The notes beneath the pieces are model-generated. The model saw only the letters and a program-made list of their open reading frames with translations. It had not been told where the DNA came from and did not search any database. DNA of 60,422 nucleotides from a virus. Position numbers and translations under genes: made by a program. The DNA lies in IMG/VR virus record IMGVR_UViG_3300032047_000013, positions 1 through 60,422 of that record. One strand, written 5' to 3'. Numbering within the stretch: position 1 is the first letter of the stretch; each line of letters begins with the position of its first letter. Positions 4,632 to 53,199 of this stretch are shown here, one piece after another.

Positions 4632-5100
4632 CTCCACGGGCCGTATGGCCGAGGTTAGATTCCAAAGGTCGGCTAGGGCCAAAGGATTATTTGTAACCAA
4701 GTCTAGCCGCAACGAAGACATGCACCAGCACATAGACTACTGGCTGGCAATGTCTGAGTCTGGATCTAAATGGGGTGTGGATGTAAAAGGCAATAACCTC
4801 CCAGATGAGATTTGGTGTGAGTTCAAAAATGTAGCTGGAAATCCAGGATGGATGTACGGCGGGGCTACAATCATAGCTTTTGATATGCCAGAGGAAGGCG
4901 GGTTCTCCATAGTAGACAGGGAGGAGCTCGCCCTTTTTTGTGAGAAGAATGTAAAAGACGAGGCTGTCACCGATAAGAAGAATGCGTACCTAAAAAGGTA
5001 CACCCGAAAGGACCGTCAGGACGTCATCACTATACTTAAGTTGCACGATATCAAGACGTTAGTTTCTTATCGTGTCTGGGAGTACGACCAGAATTATTGA
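4597..5100 (+). CDS. PD-(D/E)XK-like nuclease-fold protein
   Basis: 167 residues from ATG 4597; a second ATG at 4645 (MAEVRF) is a reasonable alternative. Spaced acidic residues match a PD-(D/E)XK core: E19 in MAEVRFQ, D47 in HQHIDYWL and D62-V-K64 in WGVDVKG. They are followed by a conserved-looking IWCEFKNVAGNPGWMYGGA. Conserved phage proteins with HIDYW...VDVK and EFKNV-x-G-x-x-GW are known to me only as uncharacterised. Nuclease activity is inferred from the motif. It closes the replication gene run. Confidence 0.65.
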   Translation: MSTSQARRRYSNSTGRMAEVRFQRSARAKGLFVTKSSRNEDMHQHIDYWLAMSESGSKWGVDVKGNNLPDEIWCEFKNVAGNPGWMYGGATIIAFDMPEEGGFSIVDREELALFCEKNVKDEAVTDKKNAYLKRYTRKDRQDVITILKLHDIKTLVSYRVWEYDQNY

Positions 5101-5101
5101 G

Positions 5102-5109
5102 TATCTTTG
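5102..5109 (+). promoter_or_regulatory. Possible -7 box TATCTTTG inside a small palindrome
   Basis: TATCTTTG matches the Bacteroidota TAnnTTTG element and ends 7 bases before the ATG at 5117, which would give a leaderless or nearly leaderless transcript. It is embedded in GTATC-TTT-GATAC, a perfect 5-base inverted repeat. No TTG is found at the expected distance upstream. Confidence 0.4.
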
Positions 5110-5116
5110 ATACCCC

Positions 5117-5326
5117 ATGAAAACAAACCGACACAAACAAATCAAGATGAATATAGATAGACTTCTTGAGCAGAACGCTAAGTATCAAGCCGCACATAAC
5201 TGCGTGACAAACACACCAGAGAGGCAGAAAGAGATCGACGATTACTGCAATAAGAACTTTATTGATCCCATCAGAAACATTGATTGTCGGACTCATGCCT
5301 TGATCGCCAAACAAAGCGACACATAA
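5117..5326 (+). CDS. Hypothetical protein (69 aa)
   Basis: Small basic, hydrophilic, helical protein beginning MKTNRHKQIKMNIDRLLEQNAKYQAAH, with three cysteines (in HNC, DYC and IDC). No domain is recognised. It is the last gene before the cargo operon and has a possible promoter box of its own directly upstream. Confidence 0.5.
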   Translation: MKTNRHKQIKMNIDRLLEQNAKYQAAHNCVTNTPERQKEIDDYCNKNFIDPIRNIDCRTHALIAKQSDT

Positions 5327-5348
5327 TAAGGCATTGATCGGTTGTTTG

Positions 5349-5356
5349 TATCTTTG
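5349..5356 (+). promoter_or_regulatory. Possible promoter box for the cargo operon (TATCTTTG)
   Basis: TATCTTTG lies 23 bases before the ATG of the metalloprotease gene, in the 53-base spacer after the preceding gene, the same octamer as at 5102. The nearest upstream TTG is only 12 bases away, shorter than the 17-23 usual in Bacteroidota, so the -33 element is not convincing. It implies that the two cargo genes can be transcribed separately from the replication genes. Confidence 0.45.
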
Positions 5357-5379
5357 AATGCTAATCTAATTCGAGATAC

Positions 5380-7140
5380 ATGTTCAACTTTAAGTTCATT
5401 TACTTCATCCTCATTACGCTGTGGTTTGTACAGCTGGATGAGATGTTTGGTCAGGAGGAGTGCATTCAGATGCACACCAAGACACAGATCATGGGGCTCA
5501 AGAAGAGGGCCGATGTAAACCTTGAAGATGTACAGGTTCAGACGCTGCCCATTGTGTTTCACGTTGTGCATACTGGAGCGGGCGAGCCCAACAACATTTC
5601 TGACGATCAAATCCTTTCTCAGGTAGATGTACTGAACGAGGAGTTCGCTGACAGCAAGATTCAGTTCTGCATGGCTGTGCGTGACCCTGACGGCAACCCA
5701 ACGAACGGGATAACTAGGTACGATGCCAGCTGGAACGAGGACTACGTGACTGGGGGTATAGGTAACACCCCCTCAAATCTTGATCCAGTAGGGTGGGAGC
5801 AGACGCAGCTTAAGTCAGCTGCTGGGTGCTGGAATCCTGACGAGTACATCAACTACTACGTAGTCTCAGAGATCAACGGCAATGACGGAAACAATGGAGT
5901 GCAGGGCTACGCATACCTAGGCCCGACAGGTGACTGTAGAGACGGCGTTGTTGTCCTGTACAATGCTACAGGAACCGTAGGGGTGCAGAAGCCTGGAAGA
6001 ACGTTGGGGTTTACAGGGGTACACGAAGTGGGGCACCACCTTTCTTTGTGGCATACGTTCTCCAACACATCCTCGTGTACTTCAGAAAGTAACTGTGAGA
6101 CTCAAGGCGATCAGGTGTGTGACACGCCTACCACTACCTCTAACTCCACAGCTCAGTGTGACGGTGGCGTATGCCCAGACGCCCTTGTAAACAACTTCAT
6201 GGACTACAGCTCTGAGACGTGTAAGGATGCCTTTACTGTGGGTCAGGCTGAGCGCATGCACGAGATGCTTCAGAGCAGCAGACAAGGCCTTGTAGATAAT
6301 CTAGCATGTGTGCCTGTCGTAGACTACGACGTAACCGCTGGTGCCGCCTACTACCAACAAGAGTGGTGCGACCCATACCAAGACATCTGGGTTGATGTTA
6401 TCAATCAAGGCACTCAGCCCATTCCTTTTGTAGATGTCGAGATGTTCTGTAACGGTCCCCAGGAGGTGATCACTTTGTATGACTTACCGCCTGGATCTAC
6501 TCAGGTGCTCTTCGAGGAAGTCTATGTAGAAGGCGCAGATGAGTTTACCATCCAGACAATCTCTAGCCTTGACCAGTTCCCAGACAATGATGCCTCTTGG
6601 TGGCCTCTAGACGTTACAGAAGGAGATTTCATGGAGGTGTGGGTTACACCTGATGTCTTTGGCAACGAAACGTCTTGGGAGTTGAGGGACGGAGAAGGCG
6701 AGATTGTGCTGTCTGACGGTGGCTATGGCACCAACAGCAACGATACCTTCTACTATACAGCCTGTATCTTTGATGACTGCTATGTTTTTGAGATAGAAGA
6801 CACTGCGGGTGACGGATTCTGTACGGTTGACTTTGACAATGACGGCGTATGTGACATCGGTAGTGATGGAATCCTTGCTACTGTTGGCCTTGACACATTG
6901 GTCGACACGGGCTTTGGATTGCAGTTCGATGTAATTCAGTTTGAATTCTGTAACTCACTGTCTCAGTGCAACATGGACTACAACGGTGACGGCTACATAG
7001 GCAACACCGACGTGCTTGAGTTGCTTGTAGACATGGGGTGCGTTGGTGCTTGCTACACCGATCCAAACGATGACAATGTTGTAAACATCCAAGACCTGCT
7101 GCTCATGCTTGCAAGCACTGGTCCATGCCCTAAGGAATGA
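5380..7140 (+). CDS. Secreted pappalysin-like (M43) metalloprotease with dockerin-like C-terminus
   Basis: 586 residues. A hydrophobic N-terminus (about 1-25) acts as an export signal. The catalytic domain has the extended zinc motif H215-E-x-x-H219-x5-H225 and a Met-turn at M274 in NNFMDYSSE, with the Cys-rich segment between them typical of M43 (pappalysin/cytophagalysin) enzymes. Beta-rich domains follow, and the last 57 residues hold two calcium-loop motifs, DYNGDGYIGNTD (533-544) and DPNDDNVVNIQD (561-572), as in dockerin type I repeats. No T9SS sorting domain is seen at the end. It overlaps the next gene by four bases (ATGA), so the pair is an operon. Proteases of this type belong to Bacteroidota secretomes and are unexpected in a phage. 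Confidence 0.85.
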   Translation: MFNFKFIYFILITLWFVQLDEMFGQEECIQMHTKTQIMGLKKRADVNLEDVQVQTLPIVFHVVHTGAGEPNNISDDQILSQVDVLNEEFADSKIQFCMAVRDPDGNPTNGITRYDASWNEDYVTGGIGNTPSNLDPVGWEQTQLKSAAGCWNPDEYINYYVVSEINGNDGNNGVQGYAYLGPTGDCRDGVVVLYNATGTVGVQKPGRTLGFTGVHEVGHHLSLWHTFSNTSSCTSESNCETQGDQVCDTPTTTSNSTAQCDGGVCPDALVNNFMDYSSETCKDAFTVGQAERMHEMLQSSRQGLVDNLACVPVVDYDVTAGAAYYQQEWCDPYQDIWVDVINQGTQPIPFVDVEMFCNGPQEVITLYDLPPGSTQVLFEEVYVEGADEFTIQTISSLDQFPDNDASWWPLDVTEGDFMEVWVTPDVFGNETSWELRDGEGEIVLSDGGYGTNSNDTFYYTACIFDDCYVFEIEDTAGDGFCTVDFDNDGVCDIGSDGILATVGLDTLVDTGFGLQFDVIQFEFCNSLSQCNMDYNGDGYIGNTDVLELLVDMGCVGACYTDPNDDNVVNIQDLLLMLASTGPCPKE

Positions 7141-8072
7141 AAAAACTTATCTTTTTCCTCATGCCTCTGCTCAGCTACGGGCAGTGTGACATAGAGATAC
7201 TAGGATTCGATCCTATCTCCACGGACATCATGATGGTTGTCAACGGAGGTGCCTGCTGCACTGAGTCTGACAGCATCGGAGAGTTTATCCTAGCCCTTGG
7301 GTTCAATCCTCCTCAAGACGAATACCCCTGGCCCTGCTTTGGGGATCAAGACTGGATGCTGTTGCTCTACCCTCTAGACTTCCCTGGATTTGAAATGGGT
7401 CAGGGACCTGACAACATCTATCAGACTGGAGATACGATAGCCTTCAACATTATCGAAGATACACCTCTTGCTGGAAGCGGTACGCTACAGTGCTGGGAAC
7501 AAGCCCTTCAGGAAGGTATATTCATGGAGGACTGCATGGTCATTACGGTGTGGCAGATCAACGACAGCGAAACGTTAGACGGTAGCTCCGCAGGCATTGC
7601 AGGTTGCGACTACCCAGACGAGAACATACCTAACAGCTGGCTAGAGTTTTCTATGGAGGCCAACTGTGGACCGCCTCCTCCTCCCGTACCTAACGAGCCA
7701 CAACCATGGGAGCCCGTAGAGACAACGGATACAACAGACACGTCTGGACCTCCACCACCTGAGCCGCCCAACGTAGACGACTGTAAGGACCCGTGCATAT
7801 ACGTATCCAACGTATTCACGCCTAATGGCGACTACGTGAACGACACATGGAGGCCCGTTACAAAGCCTGACTGCTGGTGGAGATGGGAATGCAAGGTCTA
7901 CAACAGATGGGGTGCTGTAGTGTGGGAGAGCTATGATCCCCGTGACAAGTGGATGGGTGAGGGAGGCCTTTCCTATGTGCCTGACGGTGTTTACCTCTGG
8001 ACGATCAGGGGAACCACCTATAGATCAACCAAGGTTGTCAGCATGCAGGGTCATATAACGGTCTTCCGTTAA
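7137..8072 (+). CDS. Secreted protein with CHU_C (gliding-motility, T9SS type B) sorting domain
   Basis: 311 residues. A lipid-free signal peptide (MKKLIFFLMPLLSYG-Q) leads into a Cys-containing beta domain, then a Pro-rich linker (about 179-208). The C-terminal domain starts near residue 225 with NVFTPNGDYVNDTW and continues through VYNRWGAVVWES and DGVYLWTI. This is the classic CHU_C module that directs substrates to the type IX secretion system. The phage product would therefore leave the host through T9SS, to the surface or the medium. Its start overlaps the protease stop. Its TAA overlaps the TAA of the opposing gene so that TTAA serves both. Confidence 0.85.
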   Translation: MKKLIFFLMPLLSYGQCDIEILGFDPISTDIMMVVNGGACCTESDSIGEFILALGFNPPQDEYPWPCFGDQDWMLLLYPLDFPGFEMGQGPDNIYQTGDTIAFNIIEDTPLAGSGTLQCWEQALQEGIFMEDCMVITVWQINDSETLDGSSAGIAGCDYPDENIPNSWLEFSMEANCGPPPPPVPNEPQPWEPVETTDTTDTSGPPPPEPPNVDDCKDPCIYVSNVFTPNGDYVNDTWRPVTKPDCWWRWECKVYNRWGAVVWESYDPRDKWMGEGGLSYVPDGVYLWTIRGTTYRSTKVVSMQGHITVFR

Positions 8073-8434
8073 AAGTCGCTCATCAGGACCTCGTCGATCG
8101 CTTCCTGAACGTCACCTTTCGTAGCCTCCATCGTCATCATAATGTTGGCTTGGAATCTCTTCACCTCCTCTCCTTCGTTGAATACAACAATGGTTGGGAC
8201 AACTACAATCTTGTGCTCTTTTTGGAGGTCTGGAGAGGTGGCTATGTCTACACGACTAGTCTCACAGTCGCTAAGCTTTTCGATCCATGGTACACTGTTC
8301 TGTGAGTTAAACGAAGCGTTAAACTCAATCACGCATATGCCCGAACTGCAGGCTTCTTTCTCTTCAGCAACCCCCGCATAGGTGGCCACCAAGAAGAATG
8401 CAGAGAATACAAACAGGGTTAGTATTACTTTCAT
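8069..8434 (-). CDS. Exported thioredoxin-fold protein lacking the CxxC
   Basis: 121 residues with an N-terminal signal (MKVILTLFVFSAFFLVATYA). The order of secondary-structure motifs matches thioredoxin: VIEFNASFN..., VDIATSPDLQKEHKI, and the cis-proline segment VVVPTIVVFNEGEE. Where thioredoxins have WCGPC, this protein has FNSQN, so it cannot be an ordinary disulfide oxidoreductase. Similar proteins occur in other marine Bacteroidota phages (recalled). A periplasmic chaperone-like or binding role is inference. It is the last gene of the minus-strand envelope cluster, three bases after the coiled-coil gene. Confidence 0.7.
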   Translation of the reverse strand: MKVILTLFVFSAFFLVATYAGVAEEKEACSSGICVIEFNASFNSQNSVPWIEKLSDCETSRVDIATSPDLQKEHKIVVVPTIVVFNEGEEVKRFQANIMMTMEATKGDVQEAIDEVLMSDF

Positions 8435-8437: not shown

Positions 8438-8722
8438 TCATTTTAGTTGGTCTATTTTTTCTTCGATCCTCTTCATGTCCTCTTTAATCTCAGTTACGTC
8501 CTCCTGGGTAGTCATGATTGTCTGACGGACGAGCTGGTCCTTCATGTCAAACTCCATGCGCGTAATCTCTGGAGCCAACGGCTCAGGCAGTTCTTTCGCC
8601 TCTGCTATGTCGGCCTGCAAAGCAAACCACATGCTTATCAATACACCCAGCCCTGTGACTGCCATACCTATAGTCTTTAGGTCCAGTGTGACCTTAGTGT
8701 CCTCCCCAATTTGCTGAGCCAT
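8438..8722 (-). CDS. Membrane-anchored coiled-coil protein (spanin- or XhlA-like candidate)
   Basis: 94 residues. One membrane helix (about 17-38, VTLDLKTIGMAVTGLGVLISMWFAL) is followed by a Pro-containing turn and a long charged coiled coil (TQEDVTEIKEDMKRIEEKIDQL). This architecture occurs in inner-membrane spanins and in XhlA-type lysis accessory proteins. The neighbours, an outer-membrane-barrel-like protein and a holin a few genes upstream, support a lysis or envelope role. There is no lipobox partner, so the assignment remains a candidate. Confidence 0.55.
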   Translation of the reverse strand: MAQQIGEDTKVTLDLKTIGMAVTGLGVLISMWFALQADIAEAKELPEPLAPEITRMEFDMKDQLVRQTIMTTQEDVTEIKEDMKRIEEKIDQLK

Positions 8723-8723: not shown

Positions 8724-9758
8724 TCAGATTATTACGTAGTTAATGCCAATAGAAAAGTCGTGCCATGATCGGTCCCAGTACTTGTGGTACTTGCCCTCAG
8801 CAAACACGCCAAAACTCCTATTGAATCTTTTACCAAAGATAAGGCCTCCTGAGTAATCCAGCCATTGGTCGCTACTTACGAAACGGTGGTAGGAGTATTC
8901 CCCGTCTGTGTCTACGTGGTAGGGGATTAGGTTGCCCCAAGTGTGTACCCAGAAGTCCTTTGTGAAGTGGTAGTAGTCGAATCCTACAACGAATGAATGG
9001 ACCCATTGGTTGGGCAACTCGCCTCTTTTCTTTGTCACGTAATTGTCAAGTACCTGAGGCACAACGACTTCCTCCCACACCTCATAGCTACTGGCTACAA
9101 GCTCACCCTGAGGGTTGAAGAACTCCCCTGTGTTGACGTCTATATTATAGCCCTCCTGAAGCGCCAAAGAGGTGAAGTGGAGCTGGTTGTTGTCCAGAAC
9201 CCATTCGTTCAAAGGATCGTACCCGTATGGCTCTGAGAGGCGCTGCATGATCCCCGCATTCAAGGACAGCTTACCTAGGTTGGCTCTCACCCTCTGTGAA
9301 CCCTCGAAGTAGCTTACGTCCGCAAACCCATCCTGCAGGTACTCTACCTTGGTGATCCAGCGCTCGCCTACGTAGCGCAAGAAGTGATCTTGGTCTAAGT
9401 AGTTGATTCCCTGCTGTCTACGGTAGTCACCCTCGAACAAGAACTCGAATCCTTTTACTTTACCTATCGTAGCAGCGTCCCCGTAGGACTTCTCTGTTCC
9501 GTTGTAGAAGGTGTTGGCCCTGTTCTCGTATCCGAAGCGAGCGATCTTACGCACCCCAGCAGTGAACGAGTAGTCGAATGGCGTCTTGAGTACGTCTGTC
9601 TGTAGCCCGTTGCCTACAGAAAACACCTCTTGATCTGAGATAGAGTTGCCTCCGCTGAACGCTGTGTAGAACGTAGCGAACTTCAGGGCCTTCTTTACTG
9701 CCTGTCCTGATGCGCTGGCGCTGACAAGAAAAAGCAGTAGTGTCGCTACATATCTCAT
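8724..9758 (-). CDS. Outer-membrane beta-barrel-like protein
   Basis: 344 residues with a clear signal peptide (MRYVATLLLFLVSASASG-Q). The rest alternates short amphipathic strands and charged turns (for example WITKVEYLQDGFADVSYF, SGGLIFGKRFNRSFGVFAEGKYHKYW), rich in Tyr, Trp and Phe, and ends in a strand, DFSIGINYVII, as outer-membrane barrels do. It shares a four-base overlap with the upstream T9SS-substrate gene. Related proteins seem to recur in marine flavobacterial phages (recalled), so it may be a conserved phage function in envelope lysis or receptor blocking. It lacks the motifs of PorP/SprF, which often accompany T9SS type B substrates. Confidence 0.6.
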   Translation of the reverse strand: MRYVATLLLFLVSASASGQAVKKALKFATFYTAFSGGNSISDQEVFSVGNGLQTDVLKTPFDYSFTAGVRKIARFGYENRANTFYNGTEKSYGDAATIGKVKGFEFLFEGDYRRQQGINYLDQDHFLRYVGERWITKVEYLQDGFADVSYFEGSQRVRANLGKLSLNAGIMQRLSEPYGYDPLNEWVLDNNQLHFTSLALQEGYNIDVNTGEFFNPQGELVASSYEVWEEVVVPQVLDNYVTKKRGELPNQWVHSFVVGFDYYHFTKDFWVHTWGNLIPYHVDTDGEYSYHRFVSSDQWLDYSGGLIFGKRFNRSFGVFAEGKYHKYWDRSWHDFSIGINYVII

Positions 9759-12187
9759 TGTTTGATGATTTTCTTTTTGACTCTTCTGTTCTCGTAGTCT
9801 ATCACGAACATATATGCTCCGTCAGGCAAGTCACCTAGGCTTACCACCTTGTCTTTTGTAGGGTCTATCACCCTTTGGCCCAGTGAGTTGTATACGGTTG
9901 CAACGGCTCCTGCAGGGGATTGAATCCTTACTATGTCTCTGGTTGGGTTAGGGTTCACTTCGCAGATAGTATTGTCTAGTATGGTTACGTTGGTCACCCC
10001 GTCACCGCAGTACTCGTACAGGTTGATGCAGTACGCATCCCATCCCACCTCACAGCAGTAGGGGTCCACCTCGATCACCCATGAGTAGCAGTAGTCGTTG
10101 GCCCAGTATGGAGATCCAGCACCCGTCACACAGCCAGCGTCATACACGCAGTCATCAGCGTCTGTGTTGGCCTCTTCGTTGTAGTTGTAGGCGTCGATGT
10201 CCAAGCATCCTTCGATCACAGGTATGCAGGAGTCAATGTCTACGTTGGCCTCTGGGTCGTAGTTAAGTGCCTCAGGATCAGTGCATCCGAACATGGCTAG
10301 TGTGACGCAAGAACCGTCATCATAATCAGCCTCAAATCCTTGCTCGTAGTATTCAAGGTACCCAGCCTGTGTACAGCCCGCTGCGTAGTAGCATCCACTA
10401 TCATCAATGTTCGCCACGCTGCTGTAGTTCTGGGCTTCTTCGTCTGTGCATCCAGGCACAAACGGCTCGCACGTATTTCCGCAGTAGGGAGTCACCGAGT
10501 AGGTGTTAGGGTACGGGACCATGCTCCACTGAGCTACGTCGATTAGAGTGTCACCTGTAGGCCCCATCAGCATGAATCCACACTGCTCTACTTGGTTTTG
10601 GGACTGAGGAGTCGTAAAGAAGTAGATCTCAATCTCTTCCTCGGACGACAGGTACACATCAAAGGACTCGTCGTTACCATCGTTAGGTCCCATCTTGTAC
10701 TGAGGTGAGGTCCATCCGTCTTGATAGATGCCTAGCCAGCTACCAAACCATCCATCGCCCACTCCGTCTGTAATGGTCAGGGTGTAGAAACAAGAGTCTA
10801 TGGCATCCTCTGTGTTGGCCAGCTCGTCGTAGTTAAAGAAAGATTCGTCAGTACAGCCATAAACCTTTTGCGTTAAACATAGGTCTTGAGAAAACTCTGT
10901 GGCCATCTCGTTGTACTCAAGGTACTCTGGGTCACCGCAACCCAATACAACCTCTGGTGCCTCGCATGCAGGGACCTCAAGGTTGGCGGCTACAGTGTAT
11001 CCAAAGTCCGCTACCTCTAGATGCCATAAGGTGTCTTGACAGGCGGTGATGTAAGCGTCCCCGTCTTGACCACCCCACTGCGAGGCCCCAAGACCATCAC
11101 CAAACGTATCGTTCAGCTTGAACTCTATGGCACTGCCTACCGCTATGCAAGTATTGAACACGAGTGGTATGCCGACTATCTGATCTGATACCTCACCTAT
11201 TGACACATCAATAATGTTTTCTGCAACGTCTTGATTCTCAAGCGAAAAGCTGGTTTCAGATGGGTAGTTGTCAAGGACAAGGGTTACAGAAACCTCTGTA
11301 TCTCCCTCCTCGCAATCAACATCTCCGCTTGTGGAACACGATCCGTCATCGAAGTTGGCCCAAGGGTTCCAGTTACTGGCACTAGGGTTCACGCACCCAG
11401 GAACAGCGCCACATGGCAGGCAGCTCTCCCAACAAAAAGGGGGTAGTGACAAAGGCCCGTCTACCACAAGGCTCCTGTTTACATAACCAAACTCATCAAA
11501 CAAAAAACAAGGAGACTCAGAAACGCCCACTGGCAACTCCTGAACCTCCCATTCGTCTGCAGAGAACTTCCATAGATAGCTGCCCTGCTGTATGGAAGCG
11601 GTAAGCTCCCACACCCCATCGCCGTCATCATCGTTCATCTGAGAACAACTGCCGCACCATGCGTTCCATTCTCCGTTTACTTCAGGAATGTCTATTTCAG
11701 GCGGATGCGGTCCATTAAGATCCAGCCTAAATGTCACATCGTACTGGCAGTTCTCTAAGTCAAAATATGCCTGTGGGTTGTAGTTGTTGGCCTCTGGGTC
11801 CGTGCAGTCAGAAAGGGGTGGAGGGCAAGGTAGTACTTCGAACAGAACAGTGATCTGAGACTCAGCAAAGTCGTACACAAACTCACTGACACCGCACGTA
11901 TTCTCTATGCCAAACCACCCCTCTCCAAAATCACAGCAGATGCCGTCACCATACTGATCACTTACGACGAGATTGTACTCCCCAACAGGTAGAAGTACGA
12001 GTTGTTGGTTGTAAGAGTTGTTTTCAAAGGGTACTGATGAAGCGTAAACGCTGTCACTACCCACCATAAGGATCTCCCACGTACTTTCTGCACCGTAGTT
12101 GTCAGCCTGAAACTCTACGTTTACCCATCCTATCTGCGCTGTGGCAAACAGCGGCAACAACAAAAGAACAGAGCTTAGCCACTGCAT
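9755..12187 (-). CDS. Large secreted Cys-rich repeat protein with T9SS type A sorting domain
   Basis: 810 residues from the ATG at 12187; a GTG nine bases upstream is in frame, but the ATG places the signal peptide (MQWLSSVLLLLPLFATA-Q) at the very start. Six clear copies of a GC-x-D-x-x-A-x-N-Y-x-x-x-A-x-x-D-x-x-C repeat and two degenerate ones are spread through the protein, between beta domains containing DGVGDGWFGSW and DPYCCEVGWDAYC. The final 75 residues (NPNPTRDIVRI...VYNSLGQRV...LPDGAYMFVI...KKIIKQ) are a textbook T9SS type A C-terminal domain. It should be exported by the host T9SS and displayed or released. Adhesion is the usual role of such proteins. Confidence 0.85.
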   Translation of the reverse strand: MQWLSSVLLLLPLFATAQIGWVNVEFQADNYGAESTWEILMVGSDSVYASSVPFENNSYNQQLVLLPVGEYNLVVSDQYGDGICCDFGEGWFGIENTCGVSEFVYDFAESQITVLFEVLPCPPPLSDCTDPEANNYNPQAYFDLENCQYDVTFRLDLNGPHPPEIDIPEVNGEWNAWCGSCSQMNDDDGDGVWELTASIQQGSYLWKFSADEWEVQELPVGVSESPCFLFDEFGYVNRSLVVDGPLSLPPFCWESCLPCGAVPGCVNPSASNWNPWANFDDGSCSTSGDVDCEEGDTEVSVTLVLDNYPSETSFSLENQDVAENIIDVSIGEVSDQIVGIPLVFNTCIAVGSAIEFKLNDTFGDGLGASQWGGQDGDAYITACQDTLWHLEVADFGYTVAANLEVPACEAPEVVLGCGDPEYLEYNEMATEFSQDLCLTQKVYGCTDESFFNYDELANTEDAIDSCFYTLTITDGVGDGWFGSWLGIYQDGWTSPQYKMGPNDGNDESFDVYLSSEEEIEIYFFTTPQSQNQVEQCGFMLMGPTGDTLIDVAQWSMVPYPNTYSVTPYCGNTCEPFVPGCTDEEAQNYSSVANIDDSGCYYAAGCTQAGYLEYYEQGFEADYDDGSCVTLAMFGCTDPEALNYDPEANVDIDSCIPVIEGCLDIDAYNYNEEANTDADDCVYDAGCVTGAGSPYWANDYCYSWVIEVDPYCCEVGWDAYCINLYEYCGDGVTNVTILDNTICEVNPNPTRDIVRIQSPAGAVATVYNSLGQRVIDPTKDKVVSLGDLPDGAYMFVIDYENRRVKKKIIKQ

Positions 12188-12306
12188 GACTCGCACTCTT
12201 CAGGGCTGTCAAGGTTGCAGCTAATTTCTCCAGACTTAACCTTATCCTCTTGCTTTTTGAGCTTATCCTGATCCAAAAAGCTGATGTCGTCAAACTCGTC
12301 CTCCAT
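12175..12306 (-). CDS. Small acidic Cys-containing protein (43 aa)
   Basis: An ATG-initiated frame starts two bases after the holin stop and overlaps the start of the T9SS-substrate gene. The product, MEDEFDDISFLDQDKLKKQED...ISCNLDSPEECESCSG, is highly acidic with three cysteines at the end. Tight coupling to both neighbours supports it being real; no function is recognised. Confidence 0.45.
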   Translation of the reverse strand: MEDEFDDISFLDQDKLKKQEDKVKSGEISCNLDSPEECESCSG

Positions 12307-12308: not shown

Positions 12309-12743
12309 TTATTTTTTTGATTTTTCGATTGTTCTGCCAGCGAAATATGCACCAAATGCTGTTAGCATTAAGATCTCCAGCAAAGATACGTATGAATCTT
12401 TGACGTTAAATGGCCAGTCATCCATGCTGTCAGCCACCATAGTCACCATAAACATGGTCATAAGGGCTATCAAAGTCACTGGCCTGATGAGCTTTGCGAG
12501 CTTTACGTCGCTACCCATGTCGGCCTTCCAGCGCTCCGTTACGTTCTCCTGAAACCTTACCTCTGCGTCGATCATAGCTTGCGCCTCTGCAGGATCTACA
12601 TCAGGCTCGTTGCCAAGAAGGTTCTTAACAATACCCAACGCACCCTTGTCAGGAAGGGCATCACCCATGACATCCAAAACCTTTGGGGCCTTTGACTTTA
12701 GCCAAGCCCCGAGCTTAGTGTCTTTAATTTTCTTATCCTTCAT
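12309..12743 (-). CDS. Holin (GTA_holin_3TM-like)
   Basis: 144 residues. A charged N-terminal half with an amphipathic helix (AEAQAMIDAEVRFQENVTERWKADM) is followed by RPVTLIALMTMFMVTMVADS and SLLEILMLTAFGAYFAGRTIEK, two or three membrane helices. The conserved RPVT at the start of the first helix and the GRxIEK tail are features I associate with the phage/GTA holin-3TM family. It would form the inner-membrane lesion that releases the endolysin; the M15 peptidase at 56.2-56.7 kb is the likely partner. Four-base overlap with the upstream gene. Confidence 0.7.
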   Translation of the reverse strand: MKDKKIKDTKLGAWLKSKAPKVLDVMGDALPDKGALGIVKNLLGNEPDVDPAEAQAMIDAEVRFQENVTERWKADMGSDVKLAKLIRPVTLIALMTMFMVTMVADSMDDWPFNVKDSYVSLLEILMLTAFGAYFAGRTIEKSKK

Positions 12744-13835: not shown

Positions 13836-16800
13836 TCACTTTCCTTTTAGATTGTTGTAAACCCTGTTGAACTCCATGATAACCTTTCTTTCCTCCTCAA
13901 AAAGCTTTTGCAGCTTAGAGGTTCTCAGAGTGTAGTCCTTTTCTCTTCTCGCTTCTCTTTTAATGGCTCTTAGCTTCTTTAGCTCTCTTTCAGATTTTTT
14001 TAATTGTCTGTCTAGCTTTTTAAGTCCGTCGTATCTGTCTCCTTTGCTGTTTCTCTGAGCCCTGCTTAGCTTCTTGTACTCTCTGCTAAGCTGAACAATT
14101 CCATCCCTTCTGTCAGCATAAAGCTCAAAGTCGTAGTACTTTGATGGCTCCCCGTATAGGGCTCTCATCATTGCAATATCATTGAACTCTACATCTATTG
14201 ATGGGTCAACTGTCTTCGCAGCTACCTTTCTGGTCGCCTCAACACCCCTGGTGATATCCCTTCCCACACCTCCAATAGCGTACTCAAACAAGTACCACAT
14301 TTTGTCTGGGTTGAAATCAACAGATCCAGATACCTCAGAAGACCCTCCTGTTGCCTCATTCATCCACCTAAAGAAACTTTGAACGCTTTCAGGTGATCTA
14401 AACGCCAACTCCGACTCTGGCTTAGGCGCCCCGAATGGTGACTGATCTGCGTGAACCTTTCCCCCGAAGTATGTTTCGTTAGCCAACACGTCAACTATGG
14501 GCTTGAATGGCGTAGGTACGGCACCCTTGCTTATAGATGTAATCAAGTCCTTTGACTGCCCGAAGCTAACTGGTGAGAACGAAGTGAGAATTGAGTTCGT
14601 CATGAACGTAACCCCAGACCAAGGCTTCCTGTGGCCCATAGCCACCTCCGTCATAGACTGACCCATGTTTGCGAATACATTGTACCCGTATGGCATAGGG
14701 ACCTTGATGTAGTTCTCTCCGTCTACCATGATAACCATGGCTCTTTCCTTGACGTAATCTGGAATCTTATTGTAGAACAACTCGTCATCCTCATCTCTGT
14801 CTGATAGAGCTATGTTAAGCATAGTAAGCATGGAGTTGAATAGAACCATGCCCCCAGCAAGCTTCTGAGGCGTAGTAATTCTTTCTCTCCCCTTGCGCGT
14901 CGTACCGTCAGCCTTCTGCTTAGGCTTAAGGGTTCCCATGGATCTAGCAAATCTAGCCGTACCCTGAACGCCAGCGTTGAAGAAGAGGTATACTGCATTG
15001 AGGACTTGTCCGTACTCTCCCTGCTTGTTGAAGTTCACTGTTACGTTCTTAGCAAACTGAGCCGACTTAGATCTGCTCACACCGTTCTTCCTCGCGGCAA
15101 CATACGCGGCCATCCTTACGCTGTTCTCAAAGGCCTCGTTGACACCCTCTACGAACTCGGCAGTGTCGCTAATCTTTCCAAAGAGCTTTTGAGCTACACC
15201 CTTGACTCCTGACTTAGGGTCTGATGTGTCTGATACGATGCCCTCTTGTATTTCCTGAATAGATTTAACGTGACTCCATCCAGTCCTTCCGCCGTCCTCT
15301 TTGAACTCTTCAAAGTACTTCTTGATCAGAGGGTCTGAATCCTTTCCTACAGAGTCTTTAAGGAATGCGCTTAGTGAAGAAGGAACCATCTTCATCATAT
15401 CCTTTACGACCTTCTGTCCGTTCAACACACCTCCCTCAATCTCCGTCTCTGCCGAGGCGTTAAATACAGCGGAGCCTATGTCCCTAACGAAGTTGTTGAT
15501 CGCAAACTCAGGACGCAGGGTAGTGTAAGACCTTCTTAACCAACCAGATAGACCCCTCATGACCTTCAGGAAGGTGTTGGTTTTAGACACCCCCATATCC
15601 CTAAGTGACTGAGCGTGAGATGGATCAGCAAACTGCATAGCCATCTGTTTCCCGTCAACCCTAACACCTACGACGTCCAGGTTGCCTATGCTTCTCTTCT
15701 CCCCCTTCTTCTCTGGATCAAATACACTCCAGACATCCTTGTTTGAATTCTCCTTTATGAGGTTGTATAGAGATTTCATAACCTCGTTCTTCTGACCTCT
15801 TACGTGAGTAGCAGCGTTCATGTGAACCGTTTGGGCGAACAGGTTGATGGCTGGCGTCTTACGGCCTTCTGCCTTCTTTATCCTGCTTCCGCTAACGTGA
15901 AAGCCTGTGCTTCCGCTGGGATATGTGCCTACGTTTTCTCCGCTTTCATCAATGGCAATACCAGCAAGTGGAACGTAATTCTTAAACATGTCCTCAAACG
16001 CATCAATCCGTGCGTCTGTCTCTAGACCGAGCTTCCGCATGGTATTTCTTGTGTCTTGAGCTATGTCTTGAATCTTCTGCCCTGCTTCTTCAAAAGCCTT
16101 AAGCTTTCCAGACTTAGCTATCTCATCAATGATTTCCTGAGCCTCAAGGTCGCTAATACCACTACCGTTGTCAACGCCTTCTCTCTCAAGGAGTAGGGCG
16201 TTTCTCTCAGGTGCGTGAAGGGCATACAGGTAGTCGGTAATGTCTTGCTCTGTGATACCGTTGTCCTTCATTATAGAAGTAATATCACTTACTCTTTCAT
16301 CGAGCTTCTCCAGGGCTGTAGCCGCCTTTCCGTACATGAGCTCCTCGGCCATCTTGAAGTCCTGACTCTCATCAACGGGTCGGCCCTTAGATTTTTCGAC
16401 GTCAGCCTGAATAAGCTCTATCTCTCTGTACTTGTTGGCCATCTTCCGAAGGAAGTTGTCTGTCACCTCTTGAACCCGACTCTTGGATCGCACATCAAAT
16501 GACTTTCCGTCGTGCTCTACTGTTGTCATAGGGTTGGCCTTTGAGAACCTTCCAGCCATCCCGCTGTCAAGCCTACCTCTTATCGAAGACCTTACGGCTT
16601 GTGCAGACTCTTCTGGCTGGAACTTTGGGTCCATCTCTGAAAGATTGGGCCACTCCTGAAGATAAGTGAGGTCCTGTTCAAATCCGTCGATTACAACCTC
16701 GAAGGGGAATGCGCTTTCTGGATTGTTACGAATAAGCACATCGTCTGCGCTTACCACAGGTATTAACTTTGCTGCTACTGCGTGACCTGACTTTGCAGCC

Positions 16801-19800
16801 GCAAGTTCGGCGTCAAGAAACTGAGCCCTAGACAAAGACAAGGAGGGTATAGACTTAAGAGCTCCTCTTTTTCTTGGTGTGGTTTTTCTTGCGTCTATGT
16901 TCAACAACAGCGCCTTCATGAAGTCATTTCTTTTTGAGAAAGAGAGCTCGTTTATACTCTGCACCTCTTTATTTATAACGTTGGAAAGTGTTTCAAATAC
17001 AGCCAGAAGGTTGTTGTTGTCTGGTATGGAGATCTTTAATCCCTTCTCCTTAATCTTCATAACGCCGTTCTTGTAAAGCTTTTCTGCGGTTGCTTGCAGC
17101 TTGTCCTTTCCTCGGCCCTCAATTACTGCTGGGTGACTCTTAAGTCTAAGAAGCACGTTTCTCAACAAATCCGTCCTTTGCTTTGACCCCCCACGTTTAG
17201 AAAAGTCCAATACGTCTTCGACGGCTTCTCTTATTTGCTTTGAAGCCACTGGATCGCTCTCAGCCACCTCCATGATCTGCCTCCAGGTTTGCTCAAAGAC
17301 TTCAGGGTTTCCGTGAACATACTCTTTACCCTGAGTAAAATAGGTGATTACAATTTTTCTGTTTCTGTTCGGAGATGCGTTGTCAGCTCTAATCGCCTTC
17401 TGTATCTTCTTCTTTGTTTCAAGTGCCTGATTTCGGTTTCTGTGAGAAAACAAAACATCGGGCTTAGTTTCTGCAACTCCAGACTTATTAGCGATCCAGC
17501 TTGAGTCGTAAGCCATCGCCACATAAATGGGATTCACCAAGCCCTTGATAAGGCCCTTAAGAGTTCCCATTACAGAGTTTGGTCTCCCCTCCATTGCCTT
17601 AAGCTGCTTCTTTGTTGGCTTCTGCGAAACCACCTCAGAAGGTGCCTTGGCAAATCTTCCCGTGCTTCTTGCGCTCTCTTGCTCTTCAGGATTTTGTTCT
17701 GCGAGCAAAGAGTGCTCTCTTTCGCTTAGGTTGAATAGCTCTGGGTACTTGGCCGTGCTGATCGTATTACCGCGCCCAAGCATATCCTGCATCTCCTCCT
17801 CTGTAATCTCTAGCTCATTGAACAGGTTAATGTTTTCGAGCTGTATCTCTGCTGCCTCAAGCTTAGCCTCTGCAAGCTGCCTCTCAAGACCCAAGGACTT
17901 TCTCACGGGGGCATCCCTTAGGATTTTATCTATAGCTGGAGCAAAGTCAAAGAAGTTGGTGTTTGAGTAATTTGGATTACTCCTCCAAGCATCTCCAGCG
18001 TCTTTTTGTACCTCTGAGGCCTTTTTTCTGATTGCGTCAACTTGGTTGCCCAACTCTAACTTCTTCTCCGTTTGGCGCTCCTGATAAGTGGAGTACCTTC
18101 TCTTAGCCTTTCCAGTTGGACGCTCTTTTGGTTGAGGAAGGATGTACTCCTGTCCATCTATATCAACACGCATCTCAGTAACTCTGTCTGGATATACGTA
18201 TGATCCGTCAGCATTGGTTCCAGCCATACCCCTGTACCAGTTGGCAAAGTGATCGTAGCTGTTGAATGGTCCTGCTGTCTTTGGCCTTCCGTATTCCCCT
18301 TGAGCCACACCGCCAGTTCTTATTACATATTCGTGGCCCTTGTATCTAACTCTAGCTCCTTCCTTTGGCCACTGAGCCTTAGCCATCCTTCCGCTGGCCT
18401 GAGTCTGATCTCCCTGGATATCTACCTGCTTGCCTCTAGTAGCTCTTTCAAGCTTCTTGCCGAGGGCGATAACGTCGTTCTCGCTCTTAATTGTTCCGCC
18501 GAGACCCATGGTGTCAAGAACCTTTTGAGCGGCCTTGATGAACCAATTCTTTTGAGACTTGTACTTTGATGGGTCGTTAGCGTAGTCAATCATGAGGCCC
18601 ATAATGGCCTCTTCCTCAAGCATAGCGGTGTCTTTGCCCTGCTCTCTGGCAGCCTTAGCCATCTGATCGACAGACATTTCAGACGCATCTATATCTCCGT
18701 AATTCTGAAGCCTTTCTCTAAGTATGGCCTCTGCAGCTTTATTCTTCTTCGCCAAAGAGATAAGGCTGTCAAACGTAGCGGCTCTCGTCTTAGAGTCTTG
18801 ACCAATAGCATTAACAAAGGCCTTGTGTGCAAACTCCTCCCTTACGGTGTTTCTTGTTGCCTTTGGACCAAGGTGTATTGTTCCATCTGGAGCCATGTAT
18901 CCATCTATCGGGCCTGCCTCCGCTCTGGTTTGCTCGTCTACGTTCCCAATGGACTCTTGAGTCTTGTGAAACACAACCTTACCCTCCTGCATCGTGTCGC
19001 TCTTGAGGCTTCCCTGAAGAGTCCTTACTTCCTCCGCGATAGTTGTATCTACTGTTTCTGACTCAAGAAGCTTTCCTCCAACATCATCGTTAAGGTCAAA
19101 CTCCTCGAAGTCATCGACAAGCTGCTCCTCTTGTGTTGGTTCTGCCTGCACAGGTTGCTGCTGAGTGTCATCCTCTATGGTAACCTCAGTTGGCTTACCC
19201 TGCTCGTCTGGGATTGCTACAGTCTCTGGCTCCGCCTTTACGCCCAGCAAGTCCCTAAGGTCTCCCTCAAGCTCTGCTTGTTTTGCAGCCGCCTCATTAA
19301 GGTCACCAAACTCTGCAGCCTCTGTAGCTGCTGTTGCTTCTGCGTCTGAGGTTTGCTCTTGAGCTTGACCGACTTCTCCGATAAGTCTTAGTGCCTCCTT
19401 CTTTCTAGCCTTCAAGGTTGCAACCTTTTGAGTTGCTGCTTCTTGAGCTTGAGGCGACTCCGCGTCAATACCTGCCCTCTCTGCAGCCTCATCTACTTCT
19501 GCTTGAGCTTGTTCTATTTCCGAATCAATGCTCTCAAGGGCCTGTGACACTTCGTCACTAAGCGTCTGCTCTTGTGGCTGAGCCTCTTCCGATACATCCT
19601 CCTGAGTCGTCTCTGCTTCAGGTGCAGAAACATCAGCTTCCTCTGACACAGACTCACCTGTTCTTGTTTGATCTTTCTTCGACTCAATGGATTCAATAAG
19701 GGCTCCACCAAAAGCTTCGTCCTCGTTCACCTCAATCTTCATCTTTTGAAGCTGATCGTAGGTGGATGTTGAGACCACATCCTCAAGAGCCTCTTTGGTC

Positions 19801-21203
19801 GTTTCTTGACCATTAAGCCTGTATGTAGGCTTCTTTACGAACGCAGAGGTTATGGCTGTGTTGGCAAGCCCACCTGGGGTTCCAGCAGTAGCCTCCAATA
19901 TGACCTCAACTCCAGACAACTCATCTCCAGCGGCTAGAGTACCAGCGACTTCACCAAGGCCTCCAACAACGCCCTCACCTCCAAGCTCTATAGCTAGTGA
20001 CTTAGCCGTTGTCTTTGTTGACTCAGCTATGACTTTCTCTGCAGTCTTAGCAACAGTTCTTGATCCTTTCGCAAGCTGAGATACTGCAACCCCTCCTACG
20101 AACTCAAAGGCTCCGATAGTAGCTCCTCTAGCTATTGAGGAGTTTCTAATTCTCTTCATTGCATCTTCATTGGACAAGATTTCTCTTAGTCTGTCTGGAG
20201 TAAGGTTTTCTGCACCTCCCGCCTCTTCAGCGAGAGCCTGAGAGAAGTACTGCATTGTCTCCATGGTTGCTCCAGCAGCGCCCATTCCTACTCGAAGAGC
20301 ATAGGGAAGCGCTGCTATGGCTGCGGCGCCCGATCCAACGGGCGTTGCTATAAGACCAGCTGTAGCCGCGCCTGCCTCTACAGTAGCCACGCCAGCTCCG
20401 AAAGCCTTTAATGACTGCTTGTTCAGCATGCTAGTTAGCGATGAAGCCATAACCTCCACCCCAACCCCTGGGTTCTTCGCCATGGCTACAAGAGCCCCCA
20501 GATATTCGTTATCGTACTTTTCTACCTCAGCATTAAAAGACTTCATAGCCTCAGAAGCCCCATGTTTCTTTTGATGATCCTCAGAAGCCTGTAGTGCTTG
20601 GATATACTCTATAGCGTCTTTGTCAGACACCTCTTCCATGTCTCTAAACACATCACCGACTTGACCATTGACCCTAATTTGAGTCATGCCGTCGGCAACC
20701 CCACGAATAGGGTGAGACAAGGCCTCTCCCATCCAACCCATCTCTTCCACGGCCTCAGACAGGGCCATAACCTTGTCTGCAGTTTTTGAGTCTTCTGCTC
20801 TAAAGGCCTCTCCAAAAGCACTCCAACCCTTCTTTACCTCGTCCCAGTTTTGATATATGTCCGCAACGGTCCTTGCCGCCATTCCAATGGGGCTAGAACT
20901 CATCTGCCCAACAGCGCTTACAGCCTCTACAGCGCTAGGTAGTCTACTCTCTGAAGAGTCCGACTTTCCAGAGGGAGCCTGAGAAACTGAAGGAGATACC
21001 CCAGAATCGTCTTTTTTTTTTACAAGAGAGTACTTCGCATCGAACTCCTCACGGCTCTTTGTGTAGAGTCCGTCACGAGTTACAACGCCAAAGACCTTAT
21101 CTCTGTAGGCTGGGTCTGCGTACTGTTCTTGAAAATCCTCAAACGACTTTGTATAGTAGCCCTCTCTTGAGAGAGAGTCGTAAAGCTTCTGTAGTTCTTC
21201 CAT
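13836..21203 (-). CDS. Giant polyvalent internal-virion protein (2455 aa, LPD38-like region)
   Basis: The largest gene of the window. The N-terminus has two tandem Y-Y/L-T-K-S units (EGYYTKSFEDFQEQY and DGLYTKSREEFDAKY, residues 15-60). A long Ala/Gly-rich hydrophobic stretch near 270-310 could insert in a membrane. An acidic low-complexity region (about 500-720) follows, then a segment near 780 (TIHLGPKATRNTVREEFAHKAF) resembling a metallopeptidase box in which HExxH has become EEFAH. Around 1888-1915, RRSYTTLRPEFAINNFVRDIGSAVF is the pattern of large polyvalent protein domain 38. The C-terminus is a basic coiled coil. Multi-domain proteins of this size at the end of the tail module are usually packaged in the head and ejected with the DNA. 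Confidence 0.75.
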   Translation of the reverse strand: MEELQKLYDSLSREGYYTKSFEDFQEQYADPAYRDKVFGVVTRDGLYTKSREEFDAKYSLVKKKDDSGVSPSVSQAPSGKSDSSESRLPSAVEAVSAVGQMSSSPIGMAARTVADIYQNWDEVKKGWSAFGEAFRAEDSKTADKVMALSEAVEEMGWMGEALSHPIRGVADGMTQIRVNGQVGDVFRDMEEVSDKDAIEYIQALQASEDHQKKHGASEAMKSFNAEVEKYDNEYLGALVAMAKNPGVGVEVMASSLTSMLNKQSLKAFGAGVATVEAGAATAGLIATPVGSGAAAIAALPYALRVGMGAAGATMETMQYFSQALAEEAGGAENLTPDRLREILSNEDAMKRIRNSSIARGATIGAFEFVGGVAVSQLAKGSRTVAKTAEKVIAESTKTTAKSLAIELGGEGVVGGLGEVAGTLAAGDELSGVEVILEATAGTPGGLANTAITSAFVKKPTYRLNGQETTKEALEDVVSTSTYDQLQKMKIEVNEDEAFGGALIESIESKKDQTRTGESVSEEADVSAPEAETTQEDVSEEAQPQEQTLSDEVSQALESIDSEIEQAQAEVDEAAERAGIDAESPQAQEAATQKVATLKARKKEALRLIGEVGQAQEQTSDAEATAATEAAEFGDLNEAAAKQAELEGDLRDLLGVKAEPETVAIPDEQGKPTEVTIEDDTQQQPVQAEPTQEEQLVDDFEEFDLNDDVGGKLLESETVDTTIAEEVRTLQGSLKSDTMQEGKVVFHKTQESIGNVDEQTRAEAGPIDGYMAPDGTIHLGPKATRNTVREEFAHKAFVNAIGQDSKTRAATFDSLISLAKKNKAAEAILRERLQNYGDIDASEMSVDQMAKAAREQGKDTAMLEEEAIMGLMIDYANDPSKYKSQKNWFIKAAQKVLDTMGLGGTIKSENDVIALGKKLERATRGKQVDIQGDQTQASGRMAKAQWPKEGARVRYKGHEYVIRTGGVAQGEYGRPKTAGPFNSYDHFANWYRGMAGTNADGSYVYPDRVTEMRVDIDGQEYILPQPKERPTGKAKRRYSTYQERQTEKKLELGNQVDAIRKKASEVQKDAGDAWRSNPNYSNTNFFDFAPAIDKILRDAPVRKSLGLERQLAEAKLEAAEIQLENINLFNELEITEEEMQDMLGRGNTISTAKYPELFNLSEREHSLLAEQNPEEQESARSTGRFAKAPSEVVSQKPTKKQLKAMEGRPNSVMGTLKGLIKGLVNPIYVAMAYDSSWIANKSGVAETKPDVLFSHRNRNQALETKKKIQKAIRADNASPNRNRKIVITYFTQGKEYVHGNPEVFEQTWRQIMEVAESDPVASKQIREAVEDVLDFSKRGGSKQRTDLLRNVLLRLKSHPAVIEGRGKDKLQATAEKLYKNGVMKIKEKGLKISIPDNNNLLAVFETLSNVINKEVQSINELSFSKRNDFMKALLLNIDARKTTPRKRGALKSIPSLSLSRAQFLDAELAAAKSGHAVAAKLIPVVSADDVLIRNNPESAFPFEVVIDGFEQDLTYLQEWPNLSEMDPKFQPEESAQAVRSSIRGRLDSGMAGRFSKANPMTTVEHDGKSFDVRSKSRVQEVTDNFLRKMANKYREIELIQADVEKSKGRPVDESQDFKMAEELMYGKAATALEKLDERVSDITSIMKDNGITEQDITDYLYALHAPERNALLLEREGVDNGSGISDLEAQEIIDEIAKSGKLKAFEEAGQKIQDIAQDTRNTMRKLGLETDARIDAFEDMFKNYVPLAGIAIDESGENVGTYPSGSTGFHVSGSRIKKAEGRKTPAINLFAQTVHMNAATHVRGQKNEVMKSLYNLIKENSNKDVWSVFDPEKKGEKRSIGNLDVVGVRVDGKQMAMQFADPSHAQSLRDMGVSKTNTFLKVMRGLSGWLRRSYTTLRPEFAINNFVRDIGSAVFNASAETEIEGGVLNGQKVVKDMMKMVPSSLSAFLKDSVGKDSDPLIKKYFEEFKEDGGRTGWSHVKSIQEIQEGIVSDTSDPKSGVKGVAQKLFGKISDTAEFVEGVNEAFENSVRMAAYVAARKNGVSRSKSAQFAKNVTVNFNKQGEYGQVLNAVYLFFNAGVQGTARFARSMGTLKPKQKADGTTRKGRERITTPQKLAGGMVLFNSMLTMLNIALSDRDEDDELFYNKIPDYVKERAMVIMVDGENYIKVPMPYGYNVFANMGQSMTEVAMGHRKPWSGVTFMTNSILTSFSPVSFGQSKDLITSISKGAVPTPFKPIVDVLANETYFGGKVHADQSPFGAPKPESELAFRSPESVQSFFRWMNEATGGSSEVSGSVDFNPDKMWYLFEYAIGGVGRDITRGVEATRKVAAKTVDPSIDVEFNDIAMMRALYGEPSKYYDFELYADRRDGIVQLSREYKKLSRAQRNSKGDRYDGLKKLDRQLKKSERELKKLRAIKREARREKDYTLRTSKLQKLFEEERKVIMEFNRVYNNLKGK

Positions 21204-40065: not shown

Positions 40066-41118
40066 TTATGAGATAGTCACCTCTATGTCAAGAAAGTTGA
40101 TGGTTCCCGTGCCCGTAGTGTCAATATCATAGTAAACTTTTAGATCGCTGAAGTTTGTCACATTGAAAGTTTTTGTAATAAAAGACGTGACTACGCCAGT
40201 CGAAGAAACAGACACTTCAAATGCAGACTGAAGCACTCTATCGCAGTCAACACGCAAAACACAGGGTTGGGTCAAGTGGGTTTTTATTGACGCATCCACC
40301 TTTACGGTAGCCCCAGTGCTAAGACCACCTATACAAATGTAGTTCCTCTGTCCAGTTCCACGAGTATTGTCCTGGTCGCCAATAGATACTGATCCCTGTA
40401 TAAGTCCGTTTGATATGGATCCGTCAAGAGTTGAATCAGGCAACTCTAATTCTGAATCGTTCCCATTTACTGAAATGTTGTTTACTTCTTGAGCTACGCC
40501 AGAACTAGCCGTAAACTTCCAAACAGAAAGCGGAGCCTGAGAAACCTTAAGCTGGCCCTTTACGTCAACAGTTGAATCTTGAGAATCAGACTTTCCGATT
40601 ATTTTTATCGCCTCCGCAGATTGACCCTGGGTGTTGGCAGTGTTTGATTTCACACTAAGAGTAGTGGTTCCGCCCTCGATTTTTACTTCACTAAGGCCTT
40701 GTTTCATTTGGACCTTATTCTCCTGAACATCAAGCTTGCCTCCTGTGGCGCTGAACTGAACGGATTTTTCGGCTGCAACATCGGTCTTTAGAAGAGCCGA
40801 TATGGGGCTAAGTACCTGATCAAACGTCGCCGTCTTTACGATAGAGCTGGGGTCGTCGTCATCAAGCAAGGAGTCTAGAACGACCTTGAGTCCAGCGCTA
40901 GTGCCCGCATAGCCGTTTCCTGCTTTATTCCTAATCCTTGAGAAAAGAACATTATAAAATATGTAAGCCCCTGTGTAGGAGTCTTTTAGGTGTATGTAGT
41001 CACCATCTCTCTCAGCCTCTAGAGATTCCGCATCATAAAGAGCTGGAGATCCATAAGGTAGCTTTACTGCAATCGCACCAAAGCTCTCATAAATTTTAAA
41101 TAAAGAATCTAGAGGCAT
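40066..41118 (-). CDS. Fibre-like structural protein (350 aa)
   Basis: Starts MPLDSLFKIYESFGAIAVKLPYG. The first 100 residues form a mixed domain; the rest is beta-rich and polar with many Ser/Thr/Asn (VKSNTANTQGQSAEAIKIIG, GNDSELELPDSTLDGSISNG). No enzyme motif is visible. It starts one base after the next upstream gene ends, within the block of fibre-like genes between portal and scaffold. Confidence 0.5.
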   Translation of the reverse strand: MPLDSLFKIYESFGAIAVKLPYGSPALYDAESLEAERDGDYIHLKDSYTGAYIFYNVLFSRIRNKAGNGYAGTSAGLKVVLDSLLDDDDPSSIVKTATFDQVLSPISALLKTDVAAEKSVQFSATGGKLDVQENKVQMKQGLSEVKIEGGTTTLSVKSNTANTQGQSAEAIKIIGKSDSQDSTVDVKGQLKVSQAPLSVWKFTASSGVAQEVNNISVNGNDSELELPDSTLDGSISNGLIQGSVSIGDQDNTRGTGQRNYICIGGLSTGATVKVDASIKTHLTQPCVLRVDCDRVLQSAFEVSVSSTGVVTSFITKTFNVTNFSDLKVYYDIDTTGTGTINFLDIEVTIS

Positions 41119-41119
41119 G

Positions 41120-43043: not shown

Positions 43044-43061
43044 TTAATTGTTTTTGTTACA

Positions 43062-43093
43062 CAAATATATCAAAAAACAATTACAATGTCAAA
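43062..43093 (-). promoter_or_regulatory. Bacteroidota promoter TTTG-N20-TATATTTG
   Basis: Minus-strand TTTG (43090-43093) and TATATTTG (43062-43069) with 20 bases between, 18 bases before the ATG at 43043. It is an exact match to both elements and overlaps the end of the upstream fibre-like gene. Confidence 0.7.
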
Positions 43094-44560: not shown

Positions 44561-44578
44561 TTTGTTCTTTTTTAATGT

Positions 44579-46525: not shown

Positions 46526-46526
46526 A

Positions 46527-53180: not shown

Positions 53181-53199
53181 TCCTTTTAATTAAATTTCG

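Follow-up and report, generated by a model that had tools for sequence, protein, structure and literature searches.

A virus-exclusive four-gene cassette headed by a type IX secretion substrate, and its possible role as a phage envelope complex

Introduction

What use would a phage have for a large protein that carries an export signal for the type IX secretion system (T9SS) of its host? This question is raised by a minus-strand gene at 9755-12196 of a 60,422-base stretch of viral DNA (positions 1 to 60,422 of IMG/VR virus record IMGVR_UViG_3300032047_000013), which is referred to below as the window. An initial annotation of this DNA had presented it as a single adhesin gene. The present analysis showed that the product is a T9SS substrate, but that the key unit is a conserved cassette of four genes, in which the substrate gene is accompanied by genes for a predicted outer-membrane barrel, a small membrane protein and a thioredoxin-like protein. 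The best-supported function, in our analysis, would be superinfection exclusion or receptor masking by an envelope complex, with a probability of roughly 0.4. The initial annotation had offered superinfection exclusion, aggregation of neighbours and virion release as possible roles, of which the first is kept as the leading candidate.

Phage-encoded type A T9SS cargo has been described in 'Cryophage' (Bellas et al. 2020, PMC7468147), and open reading frames (ORFs) with T9SS domains in crAss-BACON phages (PMC6949934); in the literature found, phage use of the T9SS was noted only as such scattered cargo genes. The cassette resembles these cases in that phage genes carry sorting domains and presumably use the host T9SS, in that cargo varies from variant to variant, and in that exclusion has been proposed, by Bellas et al. 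for other phage T9SS cargo (PMC7468147). It differs in that their cargo consists of variable enzymes or PA14/BACON proteins, whereas the present cassette is conserved, is headed by a single cargo gene per genome, contains a virus-exclusive barrel and spans several phage lineages. The word 'barrel' is absent from the text of the Cryophage paper, and no description of the four-gene cassette was found in open-access papers.

A conserved and virus-exclusive four-gene cassette

All four genes lie on the minus strand. The T9SS protein gene comes first (9755-12196, 813 amino acids; recognised by sequence, domain profiles, alignment and fold matches), followed by the genes for the barrel protein (8724-9758, 344 amino acids), a 94-residue protein with one predicted transmembrane helix and a charged, coiled-coil-like tail (8438-8722), and a putatively exported protein of probable thioredoxin fold in which NxxN replaces CxxC (8069-8434). 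The genes are tightly packed. The stop of the T9SS gene overlaps the start of the barrel gene by 4 bp, an arrangement found exactly in 59 of 104 unique pairs, while 1 base separates the barrel gene from the 94-residue gene and 3 bases separate the latter from the thioredoxin-like gene.

The same cassette was recovered from three independent seeds. With the T9SS protein as query, 52 viral loci were found, and the neighbouring genes are the same in nearly all of those of sufficient length. The barrel was detected in at least 521 viral contigs. Of 75 further loci retrieved with the coiled-coil gene, 61 contain the whole cassette, and most of the others lie at contig ends. These counts refer to contigs or unique sequences rather than species, and IMG/VR contigs, for which no completeness value is given here, may be fragments or redundant copies. 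In a cassette-independent test based on terminase relatives, the barrel was present in 6 of 7 contigs of at least 50 kb.

Outside viruses, a search of 84,980 species genomes gave only 2 barrel matches, each on a short phage-like contig. Since the genes beside these two matches in metagenome-assembled genomes (MAGs; L054 and L055) also match phage contigs, they are not evidence for a host gene. Of 395 genomes from the class of one of these MAGs, a barrel search returned only that MAG, and the thioredoxin-like profile, searched in 149 of the class, did likewise. The absence of the barrel from the 394 other genomes indicates that it serves the virus. Among INPHARED phages no relative of the barrel, the T9SS protein or the coiled-coil protein was found, and the thioredoxin-like protein gave only partial matches to thioredoxins of Streptomyces phages.

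These results bear on whether the gene is host cargo picked up by chance and useless to the phage. The modules of the T9SS protein, such as its carbohydrate-binding module (CBM)-like part and its C-terminal domain (CTD), are of kinds found in secreted host proteins. However, the T9SS gene is kept in more than 100 viral contigs with a ratio of nonsynonymous to synonymous substitution (dN/dS) of about 0.15, the barrel is virus-exclusive, and most long terminase relatives carry it. The initial annotation had set synteny in related phages as a check beforehand, and had named absence from all relatives together with host-like composition as the sign of a recent insertion; instead, the gene is kept in synteny, and in composition it lies inside the range spanned by the window's other genes. 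Chance cargo is thus very improbable, and we rejected it on synteny, selection and virus exclusivity.

The terminases of the cassette phages fall into several groups when scored against the family phrog_6681, one at about 650-720 bits, another at about 420-445 bits and a third at 202 bits, with no or only a marginal match in four further phages, which shows that the cassette crosses phage lineages. Between the window and locus L003 the barrels are 97% and the coiled-coil proteins 99% identical, but the terminases are 80% identical, the thioredoxin-like gene is divergent, and the cassette of L003 lies beside the portal gene. The window terminase itself has its nearest match in Caudoviricetes sp. 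MW202828 (49%), followed by Flavobacterium elemo phages (40%), and Cellulophaga phages also match. Judged solely from T9SS use and these relatives, the hosts of cassette phages are probably Bacteroidota.

Consistent viral use of the host T9SS route, as the initial annotation had supposed, was borne out by the sorting domain. A type A CTD (TIGR04183) was present in 41 of 43 viral records, in nearly every case exactly once and in 38 over the cut-off; these records had almost all been picked for having the cassette. No TIGR04183 match was obtained in the elemo phages and MW202828, both of which are without the cassette, or in record G031. Two type A CTDs occur in record G055, a 59.7 kb contig with two different cassette copies near its two ends (L040 and L051). 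At three other loci (L063, L066 and L069) a single barrel gene is preceded by a tandem pair of ORFs that carry type A sorting domains, which suggests that the exported protein has been duplicated or split. About a dozen loci are rearranged, with the T9SS gene placed after the thioredoxin-like gene.

The exported protein is a mosaic type A substrate

The T9SS gene starts with GTG, giving 813 amino acids, and an in-frame ATG at 12187 would give 810. Its product contains 40 cysteines. From the N-terminus it consists of a signal peptide, a DGDGICC domain, a CBM20/48-like module and two further beta-sandwich modules, and its C-terminal part of GCTDPxAxNYxPxAN cysteine repeats, a cysteine-rich pre-CTD and the sorting CTD. 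Full-length Foldseek matches beyond single modules had low TM-scores and were set aside.

The signal peptide (residues 1-20, 12137-12196), read from sequence and alignment, is a hydrophobic N-terminus ending in ATAQ, with a glutamine at the predicted mature N-terminus. This Q21 is present in at least 90% of the family members in the alignment, and it fits the Bacteroidetes Q-rule for mature N-termini (PMC5837995), so the protein bears a recognisable Sec signal peptide. At the other end, the sorting domain (residues 744-813 plus stop codon, 9755-9967) scored 35.1 bits with TIGR04183 (cut-off 23 bits, E 9.5e-9) and 27 bits with PF18962, exactly its cut-off. Among solved structures, the family profile also hits T9SS CTDs, those of NucA (8glk, 8glj) and of gingipains, and the predicted fold superimposes on 8glk_D with a TM-score of 0.76 and a root-mean-square deviation of 2.3 A. 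By profile and predicted fold, the annotation of a type A T9SS substrate on the minus strand is confirmed. Just before the CTD lies the conserved pre-CTD (residues 689-733, 9998-10132), which by alignment reads ANDYCYSWVIEVDPYCCExxWDxxC.

Compared with L002 and L003, the T9SS protein showed a dN/dS of about 0.15 and the barrel of 0.04-0.05, which indicates strong purifying selection on both. Divergence is uneven along the T9SS protein. Residues 297-464 (10805-11308) share 55-60% identity with the nearest relatives, where most other modules share 83-100%, and against L002 the proportion of synonymous differences (pS) is 0.65 and of nonsynonymous differences (pN) 0.29 in this segment, with pS of 0.19-0.41 elsewhere. 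Residues 297-411 are 80% identical to the distant L011, and L006 and L009 differ in the CTD in the same manner. Sequence comparison thus points to a mosaic protein with modules exchanged between phages, which fits a surface-exposed part, where module exchange is expected.

A protein of this kind might act as a surface adhesin, binding glycans and sticking the infected cell to neighbours or particles, with the barrel as anchor and an improved next round of infection as the benefit. T9SS substrates are frequently surface adhesins. The predicted CBM20/48-like module (residues 143-266, 11399-11770) has a glycogen/starch-binding fold, matching the AMPK glycogen-binding domain with a TM-score of 0.7 in Foldseek, with a weak Pfam match to PF22058 below its cut-off. 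The number of cysteine repeats varies among relatives, whose lengths span about 690 to 1,220 amino acids. However, the CBM-like module has an alignment occupancy of 0.61 and is missing from about 40% of relatives, and adhesion would leave the inner-membrane and thioredoxin-like partners unexplained, as well as a locus (L241) that lacks the exported protein. We consider this reading improbable.

The barrel and its two small partners

The barrel protein has a signal peptide and no cysteine, and its AlphaFold2 model shows 12 strands with moderate confidence (predicted local distance difference test score, pLDDT, 69). The best Foldseek matches were outer-membrane porins and transporters of the NanC/FapF/OmpG class (E to 4e-7, query TM-score about 0.37). 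The signal peptide and the modelled amphipathic up-down barrel agree, at that confidence, with an outer-membrane protein, which supports the earlier reading of an outer-membrane-barrel-like gene overlapping the substrate gene. Loop 72-102 is the most conserved long loop, with 17 of 31 positions invariant, and would lie on the periplasmic side, and the long, putatively extracellular loops are less conserved; this sidedness is taken from the same model. No relative was found in Pfam, no convincing one in PHROG, and none among sequences of the Protein Data Bank (PDB) at E 10. Some members gave weak-E Pfam matches to SH3_5 or herpes gp350, which were taken as noise.

The 94-residue protein has its predicted transmembrane helix at about residues 18-37 and a putatively periplasmic tail of about 55 residues, and would sit in the inner membrane with its N-terminus inside and its C-terminus outside. 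Its PHROG matches were weak and only to mostly unnamed transmembrane or coiled-coil families. The thioredoxin-like protein scored 21.4 bits with PF00085 (cut-off 23.5 bits), and its profile matches many PDB thioredoxins (lowest E 3e-5), for the most part along the C-terminal half. NxxN stands in place of CxxC in all 114 unique sequences, counted by regular expression with two misses read by eye. A redox thioredoxin that aids disulfide formation was rejected, CxxC being absent in every member; we know of no redox-dead NxxN thioredoxin-fold adaptor in such a role. The barrel, the coiled-coil protein and the NxxN protein could not be placed clearly in any Pfam or PHROG family and appear to be new viral families.

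The coupling of substrate and barrel genes raises the possibility that the cassette aids secretion or assembly, with the barrel as cognate shuttle or anchor and the NxxN protein as a non-redox chaperone for the 40 cysteines, while the exported protein itself has another role. T9SS type B substrates are paired with PorP/SprF shuttles, e.g. SprB-SprF (PMC12618676, PMC9143113), and there too the substrate gene adjoins that of an outer-membrane barrel. In the rearranged loci L093, L122, L123 and L129 the thioredoxin-like gene stands directly before the substrate gene. However, such pairing is documented for type B substrates, whereas the phage substrate is type A, a class that uses the host PorV (PMC12618676), and the modelled 12-strand barrel is of phage origin. 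None of 29 barrel members matched PorP/SprF or PorV in Pfam at E 1, nor was there an NCBIfam match, and membership in these families was rejected. L241 also carries the barrel set without a substrate. We hold an aid to secretion to be an unlikely explanation.

The main rival is a role in lysis and egress, in which the coiled-coil protein, the thioredoxin-fold protein and the barrel would form a link that opens the outer membrane after the holin has acted, as a spanin substitute, and the exported protein would loosen the surface layer or detach virions from debris. It owes this standing to three points: about 40% of loci have a holin nearby, the 94-residue protein has, by sequence, a spanin-like topology, and no lipobox o-spanin was found in the window. 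The holin-family gene of the window (12309-12743, minus strand; phrog_3427, E 7e-22) ends 112 bp upstream of the T9SS gene, directly adjoining it. By sequence, the 94-residue protein may resemble an i-spanin in its predicted N-terminal transmembrane helix and periplasmic coiled coil, small size and position near a holin, and the four proteins would share the envelope-spanning logic of spanins. In locus L241 (record G077, 4900-6657) a holin gene is followed directly by the barrel, coiled-coil and NxxN thioredoxin-like genes. A simple lipobox scan of the window's coding strand gave no o-spanin candidate ORF of at least 40 amino acids, and a classical spanin pair was rejected for lack of this partner.

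Several observations speak against a lysis role. The holin neighbour noted in the initial annotation holds for the window but not as a general rule: a holin-family gene was found within 6 kb in only 29 of 69 loci, and elsewhere the cassette often lies beside portal and capsid genes. The relatives without a cassette (elemo, MW202828) must lyse otherwise, membrane fusion needs no large mosaic surface protein, and the periplasmic tail is short. Unlike spanins, the cassette has an additional barrel, a thioredoxin-like protein and a secreted protein, and no outer-membrane lipoprotein partner was found in the window. We consider a lysis and egress module possible, but doubtful.

A possible trans-envelope complex for exclusion

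The cassette may be a virus-exclusive, four-component trans-envelope machine that is common to many distant phages and relies on the host T9SS to bring its surface part to the cell exterior, and this complex may mask or occupy the phage receptor; we put each of these two statements at a probability of about 0.4. The four genes would be expressed together, probably late, to judge from the neighbouring late genes. The T9SS protein would cross the inner membrane by Sec, be carried by the host T9SS across the outer membrane through its type A CTD, and stay on the surface. Beside it, the barrel would be inserted into the outer membrane; the periplasm would contain the NxxN protein, and the transmembrane coiled-coil protein would anchor the assembly in the inner membrane. 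With the receptor masked or occupied, the infected cell and the debris left after lysis would no longer adsorb virions, which would both exclude superinfection and protect progeny. By swapping modules, the exposed T9SS protein would keep pace with changing receptors, and module exchange is part of the basis for preferring this function.

There is precedent for such conversion of the outer membrane. Lambda Lom and the PA-2 Lc porin are phage outer-membrane conversion proteins. T5 Llp, a phage-encoded outer-membrane protein, excludes superinfection (PMC9586334), and the cassette proteins, if placed in the host outer membrane as predicted, could likewise change receptor access. T5 Llp and the other conversion proteins are each a single small lipoprotein or barrel, without T9SS or inner-membrane and periplasmic partners, and no sequence relation to the cassette was found.

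Exclusion proteins are usually small and encoded by a single gene. A four-gene, 1,370-residue cassette would be costly for this purpose, and its late placement suits exclusion less than early expression would. L241 keeps three cassette genes without a type A CTD anywhere in the 65.7 kb of its record, which means that some phages can do without the surface protein. Confidence in the barrel model is only moderate, and both the receptor and contacts between the four proteins are presumed. All of these points weigh against an exclusion complex.

Conserved, moving as a unit among lineages and present in hundreds of contigs, the cassette marks a common, unstudied step of infection in T9SS-bearing Bacteroidota. 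Its barrel, coiled-coil and NxxN proteins could serve as metagenomic markers for phages that infect such hosts. Should either exclusion or opening of the envelope prove true, the cassette would be the first viral system known to us to be founded on the host T9SS.

Neighbouring genes in the window

A second T9SS substrate gene lies convergent with the cassette (7137-8072, plus strand). Its type B domain scored 51 bits with PF13585 (cut-off 27 bits) and 33.7 bits with TIGR04131, just under the cut-off of 35 bits. The initial annotation had stressed two T9SS classes in one phage; the type B domain is indeed there, but it occurred in only 9 of 44 viral records, so that it is accessory and the argument does not depend on it. 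Overlapping this gene by 4 bp is another accessory gene, for a secreted M43 metalloprotease (5380-7140, plus strand; PF05572, 70 bits), in which Pfam and NCBIfam profiles found no T9SS domain. The two (5380-8072) move as a pair, and in L003 and L005 they stand just before the terminase gene.

Between the portal and capsid-like genes of the window are six minus-strand genes of 122-648 amino acids (40066-47615), and the five checked had no Pfam or PHROG match. At about this position, L003, L012, L018, L019 and L024 carry the T9SS cassette. A scan for promoters and terminators gave fewer matches than shuffled sequences and was uninformative. A minus-strand gene at 13836-21203 encodes a 2,455-residue protein, the C-terminal part of which is related to giant phage proteins of unassigned function (phrog_14770, phrog_616), and two tRNA genes, Arg (tct) and Ile (tat), lie at 53199-53600 on the minus strand.

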